This document shows, piece by piece, positions 16,259 through 43,500 of a DNA stretch of 64,000 nt. Location: positions 1-64,000 of the forward strand of contig NZ_JAOTBE010000011.1 in the NCBI RefSeq assembly GCF_026162645.1, in the 5' to 3' direction. Below the pieces are notes generated by a model. It saw nothing but the letters and a program-made list of their open reading frames with translations. It did no database searches and was not told the DNA's origin. A program made the translations under genes and the position numbers. Every line of letters begins with the position of its first letter. Within the stretch, counting starts at the first letter, position 1. The DNA is from Paracoccus rhizosphaerae (GTDB taxonomy: Bacteria > Pseudomonadota > Alphaproteobacteria > Rhodobacterales > Rhodobacteraceae).

Positions 16259-16292
16259 TTAACGCTTTCTTAAGCGGCTGGCCGTTAACCAT
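16259..16292 (+). promoter_or_regulatory. CtrA-type binding sites upstream of comM
   Basis: TTAA at 16259-16262 and TTAA at 16270-16273 are separated by exactly seven bases, matching the CtrA full-site pattern TTAA-N7-TTAA. Twelve bases on, TTAACCAT at 16285-16292 matches the extended CtrA half-site. The sites end 24-43 bases before the comM ATG and about 70 bases from the coaBC start on the other strand. In Rhodobacter capsulatus, CtrA controls com genes needed to receive GTA DNA, including comM. The match is seen; binding is inference. Confidence 0.7.
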
Positions 16293-35503: not shown

Positions 35504-35977
35504 TCAGCCCCCGCGCATGATCTCATCAAGCCGCTTCTTTTCAGCCGCGTCCAGCGCCGGGGTTTCCGTGGGGGCGCGGTCGCGGCTGCGCAAGAAGCGC
35601 CACGCCACAAGCGCCGCGATCAGCGCCATCAGAGGCCCGGCCAGCCACAAAATCAGCCCGCTGCCAGTGGCGCGTGGCTCGAAGAGGACGAACTCGCCGA
35701 AGCGGTCGACGACGTTGTCGATCACCTCGGGGTCGGTGTCACCGGCGACAAGACGTTCGCGAACATAGAGCCGAAGGTCGCGGCTGATTGCGGCGTTGGA
35801 ATCATCGATGGTCTCGCCCTGGCAGACGGGACAGCGCAACTTGCGCGAGATTTCGCGCGCCCGCGCTTCGAGACCCGCATCTTCCAGCACCTCGTCTGGC
35901 TGAACGGCGAAAGCCGGCACGGAGAGGGGACCGGCCAGCGCCAGCACCAGCAGAAGGCCACGCAGCAGCCGCGTCAT
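35504..35977 (-). CDS. ccmH: Cytochrome c maturation protein CcmH (CcmL type)
   Basis: 157 residues with a signal sequence (about 1-25), a periplasmic domain with the redox motif LRCPVCQG (cysteines about 49 and 52), a membrane helix (about 107-127) and a cytoplasmic acidic/basic tail. It keeps apocytochrome c thiols reduced and hands them to the CcmF heme lyase. The start overlaps the ccmF stop as ATGA. It is the single-module short form; no ccmI is adjacent. Confidence 0.93.
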   Translation of the reverse strand: MTRLLRGLLLVLALAGPLSVPAFAVQPDEVLEDAGLEARAREISRKLRCPVCQGETIDDSNAAISRDLRLYVRERLVAGDTDPEVIDNVVDRFGEFVLFEPRATGSGLILWLAGPLMALIAALVAWRFLRSRDRAPTETPALDAAEKKRLDEIMRGG

Positions 35978-37938
35978 TCCGCGGCCACCGCCGTCGTGGG
36001 CGCAGCGCGTCGGGCGCCGGCAGCGACGCGATAGCGGCGGTCTGTCAGGCTGATCAGACCGCCAAGAGCCATCAGCATCGCACCGCCCCAGATCCAGTTG
36101 GCGAAGGGCTTGACATAGGTCCGCAGAGCCCAGCCTCCGTCCGGCTGTTCGTCACCCAGGACGACATAGAGATCGCGCCAGAAGCCATAGTCGATCGCCG
36201 CCTCGGTCGTGGGCATGCCCTGCACCGGATAAACGCGCTTTTCCGGATAAAGAGTTGCCACGTCGCGTCCGTCCCGCGTCACCTCGACCACGGCGCGCTG
36301 CGCCAGATAGTTCGGCCCGTCGTTCCGATCCACCGACCGCAGCACCATCTGATAGGGTCCGATTTGGAAGGGCTGGTCAACCTCCGCCACGCGGACATCC
36401 TCGATTTGCCACGCTTGGATCAAGGCGACGGCCACGAAGGTCACGCCAAGGCCGGCATGGGCGACGGCCTTGCCCCAATCCGCCCGCGGCAACCGCAGCA
36501 GGCGTCCCGCACCGGCCGAACCCGTCCGCAGCCACAGTTCGGAAAAGGCGCCGAACACCAGCCAGGACCCCAGCCCTGCGCCGATCACAGCCAGCGCCGA
36601 ATGCCCGGTCGAGACGGCGAAGACCAGGGCCATGACCGCCGCCGCCAGCACCAGTGCCTCGCGGAGCGGCCTCAGGCTGCGGGCCAGTGTCGCGCGCTTC
36701 CACGGCATCAGCGAACCGACCGGCAGCACGATTGCAAGGACGATCATGAAGGGCGTGAAGGCCTGGTCGAAGAACGGCGGTCCGACCGACAGGACTCGGC
36801 CCCAGAACATCTCGGCCACCAAGGGCCAGATCGTGCCGATGAAGACCACGAAGGCGGCCACGGCCAACAGCACGTTGTTCAACACCAGCGCGCCTTCGCG
36901 TGACAGCGGCGCGAACACCCCTTTCGCCGTCATGGCCGAGGCGCGGAAGGCGTAAAGCGTCAACGCGCCGCCGATGAAGACCGCCAGGATCGCCAGGATG
37001 AACACCCCGCGTTCGGGGTCGTTGGCAAAGCTATGGACCGAGGTGATGACGCCCGACCGAACGATGAATGTCCCGATCAGCGAAAATCCAAAGGCCATGA
37101 TCGCCAGAAGGATGGTCCAGCTTTTCAGGGCCTCGCGCTTTTCGACGACGATGGCGGAATGCAGAAGCGCCGCTGCCAGCAGCCACGGCATGAAGCTGGC
37201 ATTCTCGACCGGGTCCCAGAACCAGAAGCCGCCCCAGCCCAGCTCGTAATAGGCCCACCAGGACCCGAGCGCGATGCCGATGGTCAGGAAGATCCATGCC
37301 GCCAGCGTCCAGGGACGCACCCACCGCGCCCAGGCCGCATCCACACGGCCCTCGATCAGGGCAGCGACCGCGAAGCTGAATGCCATCGAGAGGCCGACAT
37401 AGCCGAGGTAAAGAAACGGCGGATGGAACGCCAGGCCCGGGTCCTGCAGCAGCGGGTTCAGGTCGCGGCCGTCGAAGGGCGGATTTCCCATCCGCCAGAA
37501 CGGGTTCGAAGTGAAGATGATGAAGGCATAGAAGGCCACGCTGACCGCCGCCTGCACCCCCAGGACACGCGCCCGAAGGCTGGGCGGAAGGTTGCCTCCG
37601 AACAGCGCCGCCGCCGAACCGAACAGCGCCAGGATCAGCACCCACAGCAGCATCGAGCCTTCATGATTCCCCCAGACGCCGCTGATCTTGTAGATCAGCG
37701 GCTTCGAGGTATGCGAATTCTCATAGACGAGGCTGACCGAGAAGTCTGACGTGACAAAGGCAACCGTCAGCGCCCCGAAGCTGATCGCCATCAGCAGCAG
37801 CTGCGCCAGCGCCGCGGGGCGCGCGCTGTCCATCCAGCCCTGCCATCCCTTCGCGGCACCCACCATGGGCACCGTCATCTGATAGACGGCGACCGCGAAG
37901 GCCAGGATCAGGGCGAAATGGCCGTATTCAGCGATCAT
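35974..37938 (-). CDS. ccmF: Heme lyase CcmF
   Basis: 654 residues with about 15 membrane helices. It attaches heme from holo-CcmE to apocytochrome c. The tryptophan-rich WWD-type signature reads LGWGGFWFWDPVENASFMPW (about 230-250). A periplasmic loop carries SGVWGNHEGSMLLWVLIL. The ATG at 37938 follows GGAGGA; a TTG one codon upstream is unlikely. It lies 92 bases downstream of the holin gene, separated by a long inverted repeat. Confidence 0.95.
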   Translation of the reverse strand: MIAEYGHFALILAFAVAVYQMTVPMVGAAKGWQGWMDSARPAALAQLLLMAISFGALTVAFVTSDFSVSLVYENSHTSKPLIYKISGVWGNHEGSMLLWVLILALFGSAAALFGGNLPPSLRARVLGVQAAVSVAFYAFIIFTSNPFWRMGNPPFDGRDLNPLLQDPGLAFHPPFLYLGYVGLSMAFSFAVAALIEGRVDAAWARWVRPWTLAAWIFLTIGIALGSWWAYYELGWGGFWFWDPVENASFMPWLLAAALLHSAIVVEKREALKSWTILLAIMAFGFSLIGTFIVRSGVITSVHSFANDPERGVFILAILAVFIGGALTLYAFRASAMTAKGVFAPLSREGALVLNNVLLAVAAFVVFIGTIWPLVAEMFWGRVLSVGPPFFDQAFTPFMIVLAIVLPVGSLMPWKRATLARSLRPLREALVLAAAVMALVFAVSTGHSALAVIGAGLGSWLVFGAFSELWLRTGSAGAGRLLRLPRADWGKAVAHAGLGVTFVAVALIQAWQIEDVRVAEVDQPFQIGPYQMVLRSVDRNDGPNYLAQRAVVEVTRDGRDVATLYPEKRVYPVQGMPTTEAAIDYGFWRDLYVVLGDEQPDGGWALRTYVKPFANWIWGGAMLMALGGLISLTDRRYRVAAGARRAAPTTAVAAE

Positions 37939-37969
37939 CAAGGGGTGTCCTCCGTTGATCGCAGCATAA

Positions 37970-38011
37970 GGCCGCGACGGCAGAGGTAAAAGTCCCTCGT
38001 TCGTCGCGGCC
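37970..38011 (-). terminator. Long inverted repeat between holin and ccmF
   Basis: Perfect 10-bp arms GGCCGCGACG (37970-37979) and CGTCGCGGCC (38002-38011), with an inner GAGG/CCTC pairing (37983-37986 with 37995-37998). It lies just after the holin stop on the minus strand. No proper T-run follows, so it may partly terminate or process the endolysin-holin transcript before ccmF. Confidence 0.55.
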
Positions 38012-38030
38012 GGTCAGATTCGCGTGCGTC

Positions 38031-38549
38031 CTAATCGCGCAGGGTCTGCAGCCAGTCGCGCAGCGCCGCGTTGTCCTCGAAGCTGTCGTCGGGGCGCGGG
38101 GGCTGCTGGACGGCCACGACAGTCTGCTCGGCCACGGCGCTGGAGGGCCAGACCCGGTGGCGGAAGTAATGCGCCTCTCGCGCCCCGAAATAGAAGCCGA
38201 CGATCGCGCCCAGCAGCCACCAGAGAGGCTCGGGGACCATCTGCAGACCCTGCATGCGGATGCCGAAGCCTACCGGCTCGACCATGGCATAGATGAACAG
38301 GCCCATCGTCCCAAGGGCCAGCAACGGTCGCGGCAGACGGTTCAGGCCGTTCACGAAATGGTCGAACCAGCCGGACCGGGGGCCGGTAAATTCTTGGCCC
38401 AACTGACCGATGGCGCGGGCATAGGCCTCTTCGTCCAGTTCCATCCGGCGGGTGGCGTTCTGCGTGAAGATCTCGGCCACGCCGGACGCGGCGCTGCCGA
38501 GGGCGGTGACGGTCGGGGCGACCCCGATGAAGCGGTCGATCAGGCCCAT
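38031..38549 (-). CDS. Holin of the GTA-linked 3TM family
   Basis: 172 residues matching the GTA_holin_3TM family (PF11351). A helical N-terminus is followed by a hydrophilic stretch (about 35-65) and hydrophobic segments at about 73-92 and 107-125 with LPRPLLALGTMGLFIYAMV and EPLWWLLGAIVGFYFGAREA. The tail is charged. Such holins open the inner membrane so that the endolysin can reach the wall, letting GTA particles out. It overlaps the endolysin gene by 10 bases and no phage structural genes are nearby. Confidence 0.9.
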   Translation of the reverse strand: MGLIDRFIGVAPTVTALGSAASGVAEIFTQNATRRMELDEEAYARAIGQLGQEFTGPRSGWFDHFVNGLNRLPRPLLALGTMGLFIYAMVEPVGFGIRMQGLQMVPEPLWWLLGAIVGFYFGAREAHYFRHRVWPSSAVAEQTVVAVQQPPRPDDSFEDNAALRDWLQTLRD

Positions 38550-39151
38550 TTGGCGATCCTCGCGCGGTGTTCGGCGTCGGTCAGGCGATAGCGCGGCTGG
38601 ATGAACTCCTCGGCACGCGTGATCCAGCCGCCCTTGCCGCCTGCGCGGGTGCGGGCATATTTGCGGCTGGCGGGACGCTGATCGGCCAGTGCGTAGTAAT
38701 AGTTGCGCCGCGCGATCCCATAGGCGTCCGCCAGGTGCAGCGGCGCAGCCTGCGCGGCGTCGCGCACGGCGGCGATGGTCATCGGCCCCACCACACCGTC
38801 GTCGGCCGTCCTGAAGCCCATCCGTGTGATCAGCCGCTGCAGGATCTTGATCGCATTGCCGCCCGCGTTGACATACATGTCGAAGACGCTCGGCTGCAGC
38901 GCCTCTGGCAGCTCGGACAGGCGCGGCTTGCGGAAATAGTGCTCGACGAAGACCTGCTCGGCCTGGGCGCGTGTCAGGGCACGAACGTCGGCGGCATCGA
39001 CCCGGCCGTCCCGGTTCAGGTCCATCCCCAGCAACTTCATCGTGCCGGTGGTCACGCCGTGATTGGTGGCACCCCCCGGATCGTCGGGATCGTTGACGTA
39101 TCCACCCTCGCGCGCCACGATCTCTCGGGCAATCTGTTCGACGCTTGGCAT
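38540..39151 (-). CDS. Holin-associated N-acetylmuramidase (GH108-type endolysin)
   Basis: 203 residues. The N-terminal glycosyl hydrolase 108 domain has the catalytic glutamate E15 in AREGGYVNDPDDPGGATNHG. A C-terminal peptidoglycan-binding part includes DDGVVGPMTIAAV and a final basic region. An insert at 44-55 reads DLNRDGRVDAAD, a perfect 12-residue EF-hand calcium loop. In Rhodobacter capsulatus a matching endolysin/holin pair outside the main GTA cluster is required for particle release and depends on CtrA. No signal peptide is visible, fitting holin-dependent export. Confidence 0.92.
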   Translation of the reverse strand: MPSVEQIAREIVAREGGYVNDPDDPGGATNHGVTTGTMKLLGMDLNRDGRVDAADVRALTRAQAEQVFVEHYFRKPRLSELPEALQPSVFDMYVNAGGNAIKILQRLITRMGFRTADDGVVGPMTIAAVRDAAQAAPLHLADAYGIARRNYYYALADQRPASRKYARTRAGGKGGWITRAEEFIQPRYRLTDAEHRARIAKWA

Positions 39152-39210
39152 TGGTTCCCCATGACTGGTCCGACCGGGATCGGTCGCCGGGGGATGCTGC
39201 GCTGGCGCGC

Positions 39211-39225
39211 TTAACCGTTCGTTAA
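39211..39225 (-). promoter_or_regulatory. CtrA-type binding site upstream of the endolysin-holin pair
   Basis: TTAA at 39211-39214 and TTAA at 39222-39225 are exactly seven bases apart. Read on the minus strand this is TTAACGAACGGTTAA, ending 60 bases before the endolysin ATG. It is a perfect match to the CtrA pattern TTAA-N7-TTAA in an otherwise TTAA-poor sequence. Activation by CtrA is inferred from the Rhodobacter precedent. Confidence 0.7.
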
Positions 39226-39241
39226 CCCTGCGCGCGTTGCG

Positions 39242-39700
39242 TCAGGCGCCGGGCTCCTGATAGACGCCGGTCTCCTTCAGCGTCTCGACGACCTCTCGCG
39301 GCATGTAGGTTTCGTCGTGCTTGGCCAGAAGCTCTCGCGCCTCGAAGCGGCCGTCGCGGTACCAGCCCTTGGCGATGGTGCCCTGGCCTTCGCCGAACAA
39401 GTCCGGGCGCGGGTCGCCGCCGACATAGGTCACGGGGATCTCGACCGCGCCGTCGGTGATGACGAAGTCGAAGGCGACGCCGGCGCCGTTCACGATCGAG
39501 CCGTCCTTGACCAGACCGCCCAGTTGGAAGAACTCGTCAGGTTCGGGCGCGGCCTCGCTGACCTGGGTAGGCGAGCGATAGAGGTTGATCCCGTCGCTGA
39601 ACCCATAGCCGATCAGGACGACGGCGATGACCAGCGCGACCGCCGCCGAGGCGATGACCTGGATGCGGCGCTGCTTCTTGAGGGATTTCATTCCGGCCAT
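39242..39700 (-). CDS. ccmE: Heme chaperone CcmE
   Basis: 152 residues: a basic cytoplasmic start, one membrane anchor (about 13-34) and a periplasmic OB-fold domain. The covalent heme-binding histidine is H128 in LAKHDETYMP, with Y132 behind it. It receives heme from CcmABCD and carries it to CcmF. The ATG at 39700 follows GAGGAGCATGCA. Normally ccmF follows closely; here the endolysin and holin genes lie in between. Confidence 0.95.
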   Translation of the reverse strand: MAGMKSLKKQRRIQVIASAAVALVIAVVLIGYGFSDGINLYRSPTQVSEAAPEPDEFFQLGGLVKDGSIVNGAGVAFDFVITDGAVEIPVTYVGGDPRPDLFGEGQGTIAKGWYRDGRFEARELLAKHDETYMPREVVETLKETGVYQEPGA

Positions 39701-39715
39701 TGCATGCTCCTCGGT

Positions 39716-40528
39716 TCAGGCGGCCTCGAAGGGGATGGGCCGGCGCAGGAACTGGGTGGCCTTTCCCGAAACCCGCGCGGGATCCCCCGTGGTCAGATAC
39801 TTGCTGACGGTTCCCGACCCCAGGAATTCGGGCCGGCGCGTCAGGTAATCGGCAAGGCTTTCGGCCACAAGCCCCGCCTGGCTAAAGACCTTGACGCCGG
39901 GGCCAAGCGCGCGCTGGAACGCGGACTCCATCAGCGGATAGTGCGTGCAGCCCAGAACCGCGGCCTCGGGATGCGGCATCCGGCGCAGCAGGGCCTCGAC
40001 GTGGCTGGTCACCAGCGCTTCGGCCAGCATCTCGTCGCCCATCTCGATCGCATCGACGACGCCGCCGCAGGGCTGCGCCTCGACATCGACGCCCACGGCG
40101 CGGAACGCGAGTTCGCGCTGGAAGGCGCGGCTGGCGACAGTCGCTGGCGTGGCGAACAGGGCCACGTTGTTCACCGCCACCCGTCGGGGCGGCGAATTGT
40201 CGCCCCAACGCCGCTCGGTCAGCGCCTCGATCATCGGCACGAAGACACCGAGGACGCGCTTGTCCTGCGGCAGCCATGTCTCCTGCATCCGCTTCAGGGC
40301 GGCGGCGCTGGCGGTGTTGCAGGCCAGGATGACCAGGTCGCAGCCCTCGGTCCACAATCTCTCGACGGCCCGGCAGGTCAGATCGAAGATGTCGTCGGCG
40401 GTGCGGACGCCGTAAGGCGCGTGCGCGTTGTCGCCAAGATAGACCAGGGGCAGATCGGGCAGCCGGGCGGCAATGGCCTGATGCACCGTCAAACCGCCCA
40501 GACCCGAATCGAACACCCCTACCGCCAT
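39716..40528 (-). CDS. murI: Glutamate racemase
   Basis: 270 residues, interconverting L- and D-glutamate for peptidoglycan. The N-terminal [12 protein letters not shown] carries the catalytic-region Asp/Ser. The two active cysteines are C70 in ACNTASA and a second near 185 in LGCTHYPL, followed by the expected histidine. It lies immediately upstream of ccmE (15 bases) and could share its transcript. Confidence 0.95.
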
Positions 40529-40595
40529 GGTCGCATCTCCTGCCTCGCGTGGCGCCCTTCATAGGACGCCGCGCGCGGGTTGGAAATGATTCAGA

Positions 40596-43500
40596 TCATT
40601 CAGCGGCTTCACGGATGGGTGCATGGCCGCTGCGGAACTGCGCCAGCAGCTCGGCGCGCCGTTCGGCGGCGCGGGCGGCCGCCTGTTCCTTGACGGGACC
40701 GTAACCGCGCACCGACAGCGGCAGCGCCGCCAGTTCAAGCGCTACAGGCATGGTGTGGTCGGTGACCGAGGCGAAGACCTCCTCCATGTCGGCCTCGAAT
40801 TCTCGGATCATGGCGCGCTCGCGCTTGCGTTCGGCGGAGTGGCCGAAAGGGTCCAGCGGCGTGCCACGCAGTCCCTTCATCGCTGCCAGCACCCGGAACG
40901 CCCGCAGCATCCAAGCCCCGAACTCGCGCTTTCTTGGGCGGCCGTTCGAGTCGGTGCCGTTCAACATCGGCGGCGCCAGGTGCAACGACAGTTGCACGTC
41001 TCCTTCCCACTGCTCGGCCACCTGCTGCGCCGTCGTCAGGTGCAGTCGCGCAACCTCATATTCGTCCTTGTAGGCCAGCAGCTTGTAGTAGCTTCTTGCG
41101 ACTGCTTCGCGCATCGGCTCCGGGGCGCGGTCGACCAGTTGCCGGAAGCGGCGCGACAGCCGGCGACCCTGATAATCGACCAGCCGCTTGGCCCGATAGT
41201 CGACAGGATCAACGGGCATTGGTGCCACTTCGGCCGGCTTGCGAACCTGATCGGGGAAGGCCATGGCCCACCGGCCAATCTGGAAGGCGCGCTGGTTTTG
41301 CGCTACCTTGGCGCCGTTCAGGCGGATCGCCTCCATGATCGCCTGTTCGGTCAGCGGGATCAGGCCCTGCTGCCAGCAGGCGCCCAGGACCAGCATGTTG
41401 GAATAAATCGAATCGCCCAGCATCCGCAGTGCCAGGTCGTTGGCATCGAAAAATGCCACCCGGTCCTGCAGCCGCGCCTGCAGCGACATCCGCAGGCGGT
41501 CGGACGGCACCTGGAAATCCCGGAACCGGGTGAAGTCGCCGGTGATGATCTCGTGGTCGTTGACCACGGCGCCGGTGCGTCCCTGGGTCATCAGGCCAAC
41601 CGTCTTGGCGCCTGCGGTTACCACAAGATCGCCCCCGATGACGCAGTCGGCCTCACCCACGGCGACGCGGATGGCGCTGATGTCCTCCGGGCGGTTCGCC
41701 AGGCGCAGGTGGATATGGACCGCGCCGCCTTTCTGGGCCAATCCCGCCATCTCCATCATCCCGGCACCCTTGCCGTCCATATGGGCCGCCTGCGCCAGCA
41801 CCGCGCCGATGGTCACGACGCCGGTGCCGCCGACGCCAGTGATGACGACATTGTGGGTGCCGTCGATGACCGGCAAAGCGGGCGCCGGCAGGTTGGGCAG
41901 GTCAAACGCTTCGGCCTTGGGCTTGCGCAGCTTGCCGCCCTTGACGGACACGAAACTGGGGCAGAAACCCTTCACGCAGCTGTAGTCCTTGTTGCAGCTG
42001 GACTGGTCGATCTGCCGCTTGCGGCCAAGTTCAGTGTCCAGCGGCACGACAGATACGCAGTTCGACTGGACCGAGCAGTCGCCGCAGCCTTCGCAAACCT
42101 CGGGGTTGATCCAGATGCGGCGGTCGGGGTCCGGGAACTGGCCCTTCTTGCGCCGCCGCCGCTTCTCGGCCGCGCAGGTCTGAATATAGAGGATCGCGCT
42201 GACGCCCTGGGCGGTCTCCAGCTCTCGCTGGACGGCGATCATCTCGGCCCGTTCCTCGAATCGCAGGCCGGCGGGGAACTGGCCGCGGTCCACGTCCTCC
42301 TTCTCGTCATAGACGACGACCAGCGGCGCCACGCCCATCGCCTGCAGCTCGCGCGCGATCTGCGGCGCGGTCAGCCCGCCCTCGTTCGGCTGCCCGCCAG
42401 TCATCGCGACGGCGTCGTTATAGAGGATCTTGTAGGTAATGTTGGTCCCCGCAGCCAGCGCCGCACGGATCGCCAGGATGCCGGAGTGGTTATAGGTTCC
42501 GTCGCCGAGGTTCTGGAAAACATGATCTCTCTTGCTGAACGGCGCCTCGCCGATCCAGTTCGCGCCCTCGCCGCCCATATGCGTGAAGCCTTCGGTTTCG
42601 CGGCCCATCCACTGCACCATGTAATGGCAGCCGATGCCTGCATAGGCGCGACTGCCCTCCGGCAGACGGGTCGAGCTGTTATGCGGGCAGCCGGAGCAGA
42701 ACCAAGGCGTGCGGGTCGCGATCTCGGGGGCGTTGTCGTTGCGGCGAACCTCGTTCAGCCGCGCCAGTCCGGCTCGCACATGCTCGGTTCCCCGGCCCTC
42801 CTCGATCAGGATGTCGCCGATCTTCTGCGCGATCATCACCGGGTCCAGCGCATAGCGGGTCGGGAACAGCTCCTCGCCCGTGAGATCGTGCTTCCAGCCG
42901 TGGACGCGGCGGCCGCGGCGCTTGTCGAAGATTGCTTCCTTCAGCTGCACCTCGATCAGCTTGCGCTTTTCCTCGACGCAGACGATCAGCTCCAGGTCCT
43001 CGGACCATTCCTGGATCGACTTCATGTCCATGGGCCAGGTCTGCCCGACCTTGTAGGTGGTCAGGCCCAACCGCTCGGCCTCGGCCTCGTCGATGCCCAG
43101 AAGCGACAGGGCGTGGACCAGGTCCAGCCAGTTCTTGCCGGCGGCGACGAAACCGATCCGCGCACCGGGCCTGCCCCAGACGCGATGGTCGATGCGGTTC
43201 GCACGGCTGAACGCCTCGGCCGCCCACCGCTTGTGGTCGATCATCCGCGCTTCCTGCGCGACGGGCGTGTCGCCAAGCCGAATGTTCAGCCCGCCGTCGG
43301 GCATGTTGAACTGCTGCGGCTGGACGAACTGAAGCCGGTGCGGGTCGCCATCGACGACAGCCGTCGCCTCGACCGTGTCCTTCATCGTCTTCAGGCCGGT
43401 CCAGACACCGGCATAGCGTGACAGCGCGAAACCGTATAGGCCATAGTCCAGGATCTCCTGCACGCCGGCTGGCGACAGGACAGGAATATAGGCGTCGATC

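Follow-up and report, generated by a model that had tools for sequence, protein, structure and literature searches.

A putative CtrA promoter with a predicted leader hairpin before the GTA endolysin-holin pair of Paracoccus rhizosphaerae and related bacteria

A population with GTA lysis genes must be kept from lysing by accident, and the means by which this is done is a central issue in GTA evolution. The stretch of DNA analyzed, referred to below as the window, consists of 64,000 nucleotides of Paracoccus rhizosphaerae. The genes in question are ordered murI, ccmE, endolysin, holin and ccmF on its minus strand, and the sequence TTAACCGTTCGTTAA (39211-39225), a CtrA-type box, lies in the 90 bp that separate ccmE from the endolysin gene, which is of the GTA type. 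Because the lysis pair lies behind ccmE, and in the window between ccmE and ccmF, some lock against read-through from the housekeeping genes would be needed. We think it probable, from comparing sequences, that the box is the CtrA-binding element of the endolysin-holin promoter and that a hairpin in the mRNA leader serves as the lock against ccmE read-through. The features are listed in Table 1.

Table 1. Predicted features of the lysis locus and its flanking genes (positions in the window)
Feature	Positions	Strand	Remarks
CtrA-type full box TTAA-N7-TTAA	39211..39225	-	perfect; halves at 39222-39225 (upstream) and 39211-39214 (downstream)
Upstream element GCAACGCGCG, family form CGnRCG	39231..39240	-	near-invariant in 32 Paracoccus loci
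Predicted -10 element CAGCAT	39194..39199	-	A at +16, T at +20 from downstream TTAA
Predicted transcription start	39187	-	about +27 from TTAA, +/-2; inferred from -10 position
Left arm of predicted leader hairpin, UCCCC	39190..39194	-	window RNA fold; starts at last base of -10 element
Inner loop hairpin CGACCG/CGGTCG	39171..39186	-	window RNA fold
Right arm, GGGGA, with Shine-Dalgarno-like GGGG	39156..39160	-	window RNA fold
GTA-type endolysin, glycosyl hydrolase 108 (GH108), rcc00555-type	38540..39151	-	NF040573 354 bits, cut-off 240
GTA holin, 3 TM	38031..38549	-	PF11351 94.5 bits, cut-off 24.8; 10-base overlap with endolysin
ccmE	39242..39700	-	directly upstream of endolysin, co-directional
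ccmF	35974..37941	-	downstream of lysis pair

The lysis cassette is of the RcGTA type, as both the rcc00555-type muramidase and the GTA holin score over their cut-offs. The nearest named relative of the endolysin, among the best 80 of 578 matches, is from Paracoccus beibuensis (90% identity). The same genome encodes a CtrA equivalog (NF045991, 402 bits, cut-off 350) and a GTA structural cluster, in which TIGR02218 is over its cut-off and the adjoining gene run was named by eye.

For comparison, 210 endolysin loci were collected: the best 80 of the 578 matches and 130 loci from other members of the family, each genus being represented by roughly one genome and some genomes contributing two endolysin copies. 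Thirty of the 130 came directly from the first matches and 100 were added; G030, G095 and weak or partial matches were left out. A first count used 110 loci minus L117 (at a cut contig end) and three duplicates, that is, 34 Paracoccus loci and 72 others, and the same removals leave 206 loci in the full set (34 Paracoccus and 172 others). Membership of Paracoccus follows the annotation and, for L018, the genus label.

The gene order seen in the window is widespread in this collection. The ccmE gene is upstream of the endolysin gene and in the same direction in 178 of the 210 loci, an order that would permit read-through, and it lies within 120 bp in 148 of the 176 loci measured. In 182 of 200 loci the first bases of the holin gene overlap the last ones of the endolysin gene, and ccmF is downstream in 47 of the 77 loci with at least 3000 bases on that side. 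A constant position of the lysis pair between ccmE and ccmF was considered and rejected, since both genes flank it in 41 of these 77 loci; the placement is common, not general.

As to the box itself, the initial annotation placed it 60 bases before the endolysin start, and 59 bases separate it from the ATG (39149-39151). The window was also thought to contain about nine TTAA tetramers, a figure that has to be raised to 11 (about 20 are expected), and only two TTAA pairs with seven-base spacing, one here and one at comM. Exactly these two were found, the second at 16259-16273, and TTAA-N7-TTAA is absent from all 100 dinucleotide shuffles of the window. In the whole genome the pattern occurs 13 times, compared with once for a reversed control pattern. 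Of the 41 TTAA pairs with spacings of 0 to 20, 13 are at N7, and the 20 other spacings average 1.4 pairs each (Poisson P about 3e-9 for the N7 excess). In this genome the N7 pairs therefore reflect a genuine signal. The site before the endolysin gene is thus confirmed as real. The 11 boxes beyond those at the endolysin and comM genes stand at other genes, most of which have, to our knowledge, no link to GTAs.

The box is kept in the genus. It is perfect before 32 of the 34 Paracoccus endolysin genes and has one mismatch before the other two. All 32 copies of TTAA-N7-TTAA in the 218,619 bases of these 34 loci fall within 150 bp before the endolysin gene, and those 150 bp contain no TTAA pair with a spacing of 0-6 or 8-20. 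The seven-base spacer varies among the 32 loci, in which the bases of the box itself are fixed by the selection of the loci. A box this short might have arisen by chance or been retained by simple descent without any function; given the genome-wide excess at N7 and its retention in 32 of 34 loci despite divergent spacers, this explanation is hardly credible and is contradicted by the conservation. Outside Paracoccus, the full box occurs at one locus only, L163. A TTAA half-site stands 28-90 bases before the endolysin gene in 149 of the 172 non-Paracoccus loci (random windows: mean 3.7, maximum 8), and TTAAC stands there in 117 (mean 1.0, maximum 5). A lack of conservation before orthologous genes, which the initial annotation had named as a ground for rejecting its reading, was therefore not observed.

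The surroundings of the box display a fixed geometry. In the 32 Paracoccus loci, A at +16 and T at +20, counted from the downstream TTAA, are invariant, and GCAACGCRCG at -26 to -17 is nearly so. The alignment of full-box loci (A2) has 31 rows, i.e., the 33 full-box loci minus L054, a near copy of L053, and minus L163. In the full set the choice of the anchor favored a TTAA with A at +16 and T at +20, a bias that was countered by counting only loci with a single TTAA (n = 136 outside Paracoccus). These have A at +16 in 108 cases and T at +20 in 115 (background A 0.21, T 0.18), and 114 of them have CGnnCG at -22. The A at -11 and the T at -7 of the bacterial -10 element are four bases apart. 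The same distance separates A+16 from T+20; on this basis transcription would start near +27, and the box would extend from about -38 to -24. Thus, relative to the predicted start, the box is near -35 with an A at -11, and the predicted layout is that of a CtrA-activated promoter. The CtrA full site is described as TTAA-N7-TTAA, and in CtrA-driven fla2 promoters the CtrA site is reported to stand near -35, with A always present at -11 and G at -4 (PMC6180460).

Taken by itself, the upstream element GCAACGCRCG occurs in the window about as often as expected (2 copies, 1.64 expected). We know of no factor for this element or for its family form CGnRCG; GafA is a candidate. In R. capsulatus, endolysin expression is reported to require both CtrA and GafA, overexpression of ctrA alone does not raise the lysis genes and the lysis promoter is bound by GafA (PMC6363796), while putative CtrA half-sites at that promoter are given in PMC9638019. 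The DNA elements of GafA are stated in PMC11150451 to be unmapped at nucleotide resolution. When a 52-base promoter element was searched in its own genome, with 150 of 1853 first-look candidates scored, the lysis promoter came first (E 3.6e-11), and the next match (E 0.0098) was partial, reverse-oriented and before dprA. GCAACGCRCG with TTAA at the right distance and at most one mismatch occurs twice in the genome, at the lysis promoter and at one other place; at up to two mismatches the combination is not in excess genome-wide (24 matches, compared with 29 of the reversed control). Inspection by eye of the promoter region of the GTA cluster showed no obvious copy of the upstream element. The PF08299 profile has three matches in the genome, one of them over the cut-off, and we read that one as dnaA; gafA was not located by PF08299.

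The second box in the window precedes comM, which the initial annotation took to be another CtrA target, serving uptake where the endolysin serves release. The comparison used 29 comM loci of the family (30 minus L337, which is too short). TTAA occurs in the upstream 150 bp of 26 of them, and a box with at most one mismatch occurs in 18; random stretches of the same loci contain one in 0.7 loci on average and in 4 at most. A CtrA-like site is thus kept at comM too, but the perfect form was found in only one of the 29, the window's own. The common form at comM appears by eye to be TTAAC-N5-TAAACC rather than perfect TTAA-N7-TTAA. In Dinoroseobacter shibae, com genes are reported to have predicted CtrA sites, and the section on these sites does not name the endolysin pair Dshi_1756/1757 (PMC6473078); the omission fits a half-site below that study's threshold and does not support the CtrA reading. 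On these sequence comparisons, the CtrA/GTA interpretation of both boxes is supported.

Some other sites in the genome may be mentioned here. The match beside dprA, which came from the lysis-promoter model in reverse orientation, contains CTAA-N7-TTAACC shortly before a gene read by eye as dprA (L228:1500-1560, on contig C55). A TTAA-N7-TTAA stands 28 bases before a gene for a 537-aa PAS-domain protein (L007/L248, contig C125, near 32713), which we take to be possibly DivL, a regulator of CtrA phosphorylation; its neighbor looks like regB. The perfect boxes L005, L006, L001 and L013 are near genes for RTX calcium-binding, Hint-domain and RF-1-domain proteins and near a response regulator/DsbD pair.

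From seven genomes two full-length endolysin copies were available for comparison. TTAA stands before one copy only in five of them, before both in one and before neither in one, and where both have it, the TTAA of the second copy lacks the -10 bases. The copies without an upstream ccmE in these genomes are L134, L187, L196, L202, L204, L210 and L218; TTAA is absent before the gene in six of them, and L218 is the one whose TTAA lacks the -10 bases. In several of the seven a small hairpin was seen by eye at the ribosome-binding site. Viral and prophage homologues were also compared (41 non-redundant ones, from 52 used out of 80 kept). Only three of these have the TTAA and none has the -10 geometry, and neither ccmE nor ccmF was matched in the sequence stretches examined around them. 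The promoter is therefore a feature of the lysis locus in its domesticated form.

An inverted repeat lies between the -10 element and the ATG, with its left zone at +15 to +31 and its right zone in the 20 bases before the ATG. In the anchor-based tests of this repeat, 183 loci were used, since 23 of the 206 have no TTAA in the stretch searched. The two arms of a locus pair at a mean of -13.76 kcal/mol, compared with -9.79 (sd 0.19) when arms are swapped between loci, and none of 5000 swapped-arm permutations reached so low a value. The set with about one genome per genus gives the same picture by itself (n = 107; -13.55 and -9.36), and the signal holds in full-box (n = 33) and half-site (n = 150) loci and in loci behind ccmE (n = 161) and not behind it (n = 22). 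Because the last group keeps the hairpin, it is not strictly tied to ccmE. Sliding either window is a control that preserves relatedness: the difference between own and swapped arms is 1.5 to 4.0 kcal/mol (maximum 3.99) with the left window at +12..+32 and the right at -20..+10, and it is at most 0.62 elsewhere, the larger of these remainders (z to -4.9) being in windows that abut or overlap the arms.

One may ask whether CtrA control is the whole story, the hairpin being a by-product of a G-rich Shine-Dalgarno sequence opposite a C-rich -10 region. CtrA control of the lysis genes has been published (PMC6363796, PMC9638019), many of the arms are CCCC/GGGG and the stem in the window's own sequence is weak, all of which is in keeping with such a by-product. 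However, swapping arms between loci leaves the composition as it was and yet weakens the pairing greatly, and at least seven perfect pairs are formed in 32 loci, which have 32 different arm sequences, when 5.0 such loci are expected from swaps. We consider this explanation possible but doubtful.

The kind of mismatch inside the stems bears on the nature of the repeat. When stems were picked by a symmetric score that does not favor G-U, own stems contained 61 G-U and 15 A-C mismatches, compared with 15.35 and 10.2 in swapped sets (P 0.0002). This excess points to a sense-strand RNA rather than a DNA operator. An operator at the start site, for example for GafA, would agree with the reported binding of GafA to the R. 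capsulatus lysis promoter (PMC6363796) and of its C-terminal part to the -10/-35/start region of the R. capsulatus GTA promoter (PMC9638019). An operator would presumably keep its sequence, whereas here the sequence varies and the pairing is kept, and a DNA dyad would not be expected to prefer G-U over A-C; such an operator is thus very unlikely. The comparisons instead indicate an RNA hairpin with covarying arms, in which the -10 region forms the left arm and the right arm holds the ribosome-binding site of the endolysin.

The hairpin signal is uneven from locus to locus. Fold z-scores (n = 183) average -2.04, with 127 below -1 and 88 below -2, and own arms are within the best 10% of swaps in 86 of the 183 loci (18.3 expected). 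RNAalifold found no pair in a MAFFT alignment of 98 leaders, a result that we ascribe to variable loops putting the arms out of register. An Rfam search of 38000-40600 gave two matches at E up to 1 (mir-31_2 and HgcC), both far below their gathering scores. The candidate that the hairpin is an old phage trait was set aside, as the 41 viral and prophage homologues are only borderline in this respect (own -9.35, swapped -8.69, 99 of 2000 permutations as low).

The left arm has a median span of +15 to +28, and the predicted start is at +27, so that the arm overlaps the -10 element and ends at about the predicted start. Over the 183 loci, the predicted openness of the Shine-Dalgarno sequence increases from 0.26 on read-through RNA to 0.47 on RNA that begins at the predicted start, and it rises by more than 0.2 in 96 loci and drops as much in 2. 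The values for the 33 full-box loci are 0.27 and 0.49. Ordinary starts have an openness of 0.38 (holin, n = 196) and 0.45 (ccmF, n = 73); the read-through form is thus more closed than these, though only to a moderate degree. A further explanation is that transcription begins upstream of the left arm and that the mRNA started under CtrA contains the whole hairpin, which would time lysis either by sensing temperature or by being bound by a ligand, a protein or a small RNA. This would suit a hairpin that is RNA-like in its G-U excess and a start site that is a prediction; but A+16 and T+20 are fixed within an otherwise varying arm, as they would be in a -10 element, and with the -10 element so placed transcription would start close to where the left arm ends. 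We judge the sensor explanation to be unlikely.

The hairpin signal belongs to the set of loci and is weak in the window's own sequence. There the stem is short (UCCCC/GGGGA), the fold z-score is about 0, the arms rank 0.38 among swaps and the openness of the Shine-Dalgarno sequence hardly changes (0.42 on read-through RNA, 0.49 from the predicted start). Among four near relatives, L044 and L047 open, L045 is unchanged and L046 closes. The extra hairpin in the loop also appears in some of these relatives (L045-L047 by eye, L047 also folded), and this inner hairpin may explain the longer distance from box to start in the window and in those relatives.

Our preferred reading, the CtrA promoter with a leader hairpin as its lock, would work as follows. 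CtrA on the box would recruit RNA polymerase to the -10 element 11 bases past the box, possibly assisted by another factor bound at CGnRCG upstream. The leader hairpin would be the lock in the family, with its left arm in the -10/start region and its right arm over the endolysin Shine-Dalgarno sequence. A read-through mRNA from ccmE would carry both arms and be poorly translated, while an mRNA begun at the CtrA promoter would lack most of the left arm and be translated; translation of the holin would then follow through the overlapping start. Promoter conservation and geometry, arm covariation and gene order are shown by the sequences; CtrA binding, the start point, transcription by read-through and the effect on translation are proposed. 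In a stricter form of the proposal, the lock behind ccmE has two layers and the hairpin masks the endolysin ribosome-binding site unless transcription began at the CtrA promoter; we rate this as slightly better than an even chance. By analogy with T4 gene e, a single stretch of DNA would then be both a transcriptional switch and a translational fail-safe, under a host cell-cycle regulator.

If true, a promoter within a hairpin throughout the family would be a concrete safety catch. It would account for lethal genes that lie behind, and partly within, a housekeeping operon, and it would represent the T4 lysozyme arrangement in a domesticated phage under host control. The change from a half-site to a full CtrA box in Paracoccus would be a natural experiment on CtrA's need for a partner.

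CtrA control of the R. capsulatus lysis genes and a putative half-site were known already; the full box in Paracoccus and the fixed promoter geometry are new here. The open-license literature searched on GTA lysis genes yielded no report of a hairpin in the leader or of the position downstream of ccmE. The hairpin is less expected than the CtrA promoter, and an earlier mention of it may exist.

Compared with known CtrA promoters, namely the full site of Caulobacter crescentus and fla2 of R. sphaeroides (PMC6180460), the lysis promoter has the same box, predicted to lie near -35, and a conserved A, predicted to be at -11. Unlike these CtrA-activated promoters, it adds the CGnRCG element, and its -10 region would be one arm of an mRNA hairpin; unlike the C. 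crescentus full site, only one half of the box is kept outside Paracoccus and L163. The conserved G at -4 reported for fla2 (PMC6180460) has no counterpart here, as C is the commonest base at +23 (47-59%). The R. capsulatus genes rcc00555/rcc00556 belong to the same endolysin-holin family, and they are described as CtrA-dependent with a putative half-site (PMC6363796, PMC9638019, PMC3423380), whereas Paracoccus has the full box; R. capsulatus is not among the named loci compared.

The closest likeness outside the CtrA systems is the lysozyme gene e of T4, in which longer upstream transcripts are reported to mask the start in a hairpin, T4-type late promoters encoding the 5' strand of the masking structure (PMC3014915). 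In both cases the gene encodes a lysis enzyme, and the start would be masked in longer upstream transcripts. We claim no homology between the two, which differ in that the GTA promoter would be regulated by the host, with CtrA in place of the phage late sigma factor, the phage is a domesticated one and the gene upstream is a housekeeping gene.
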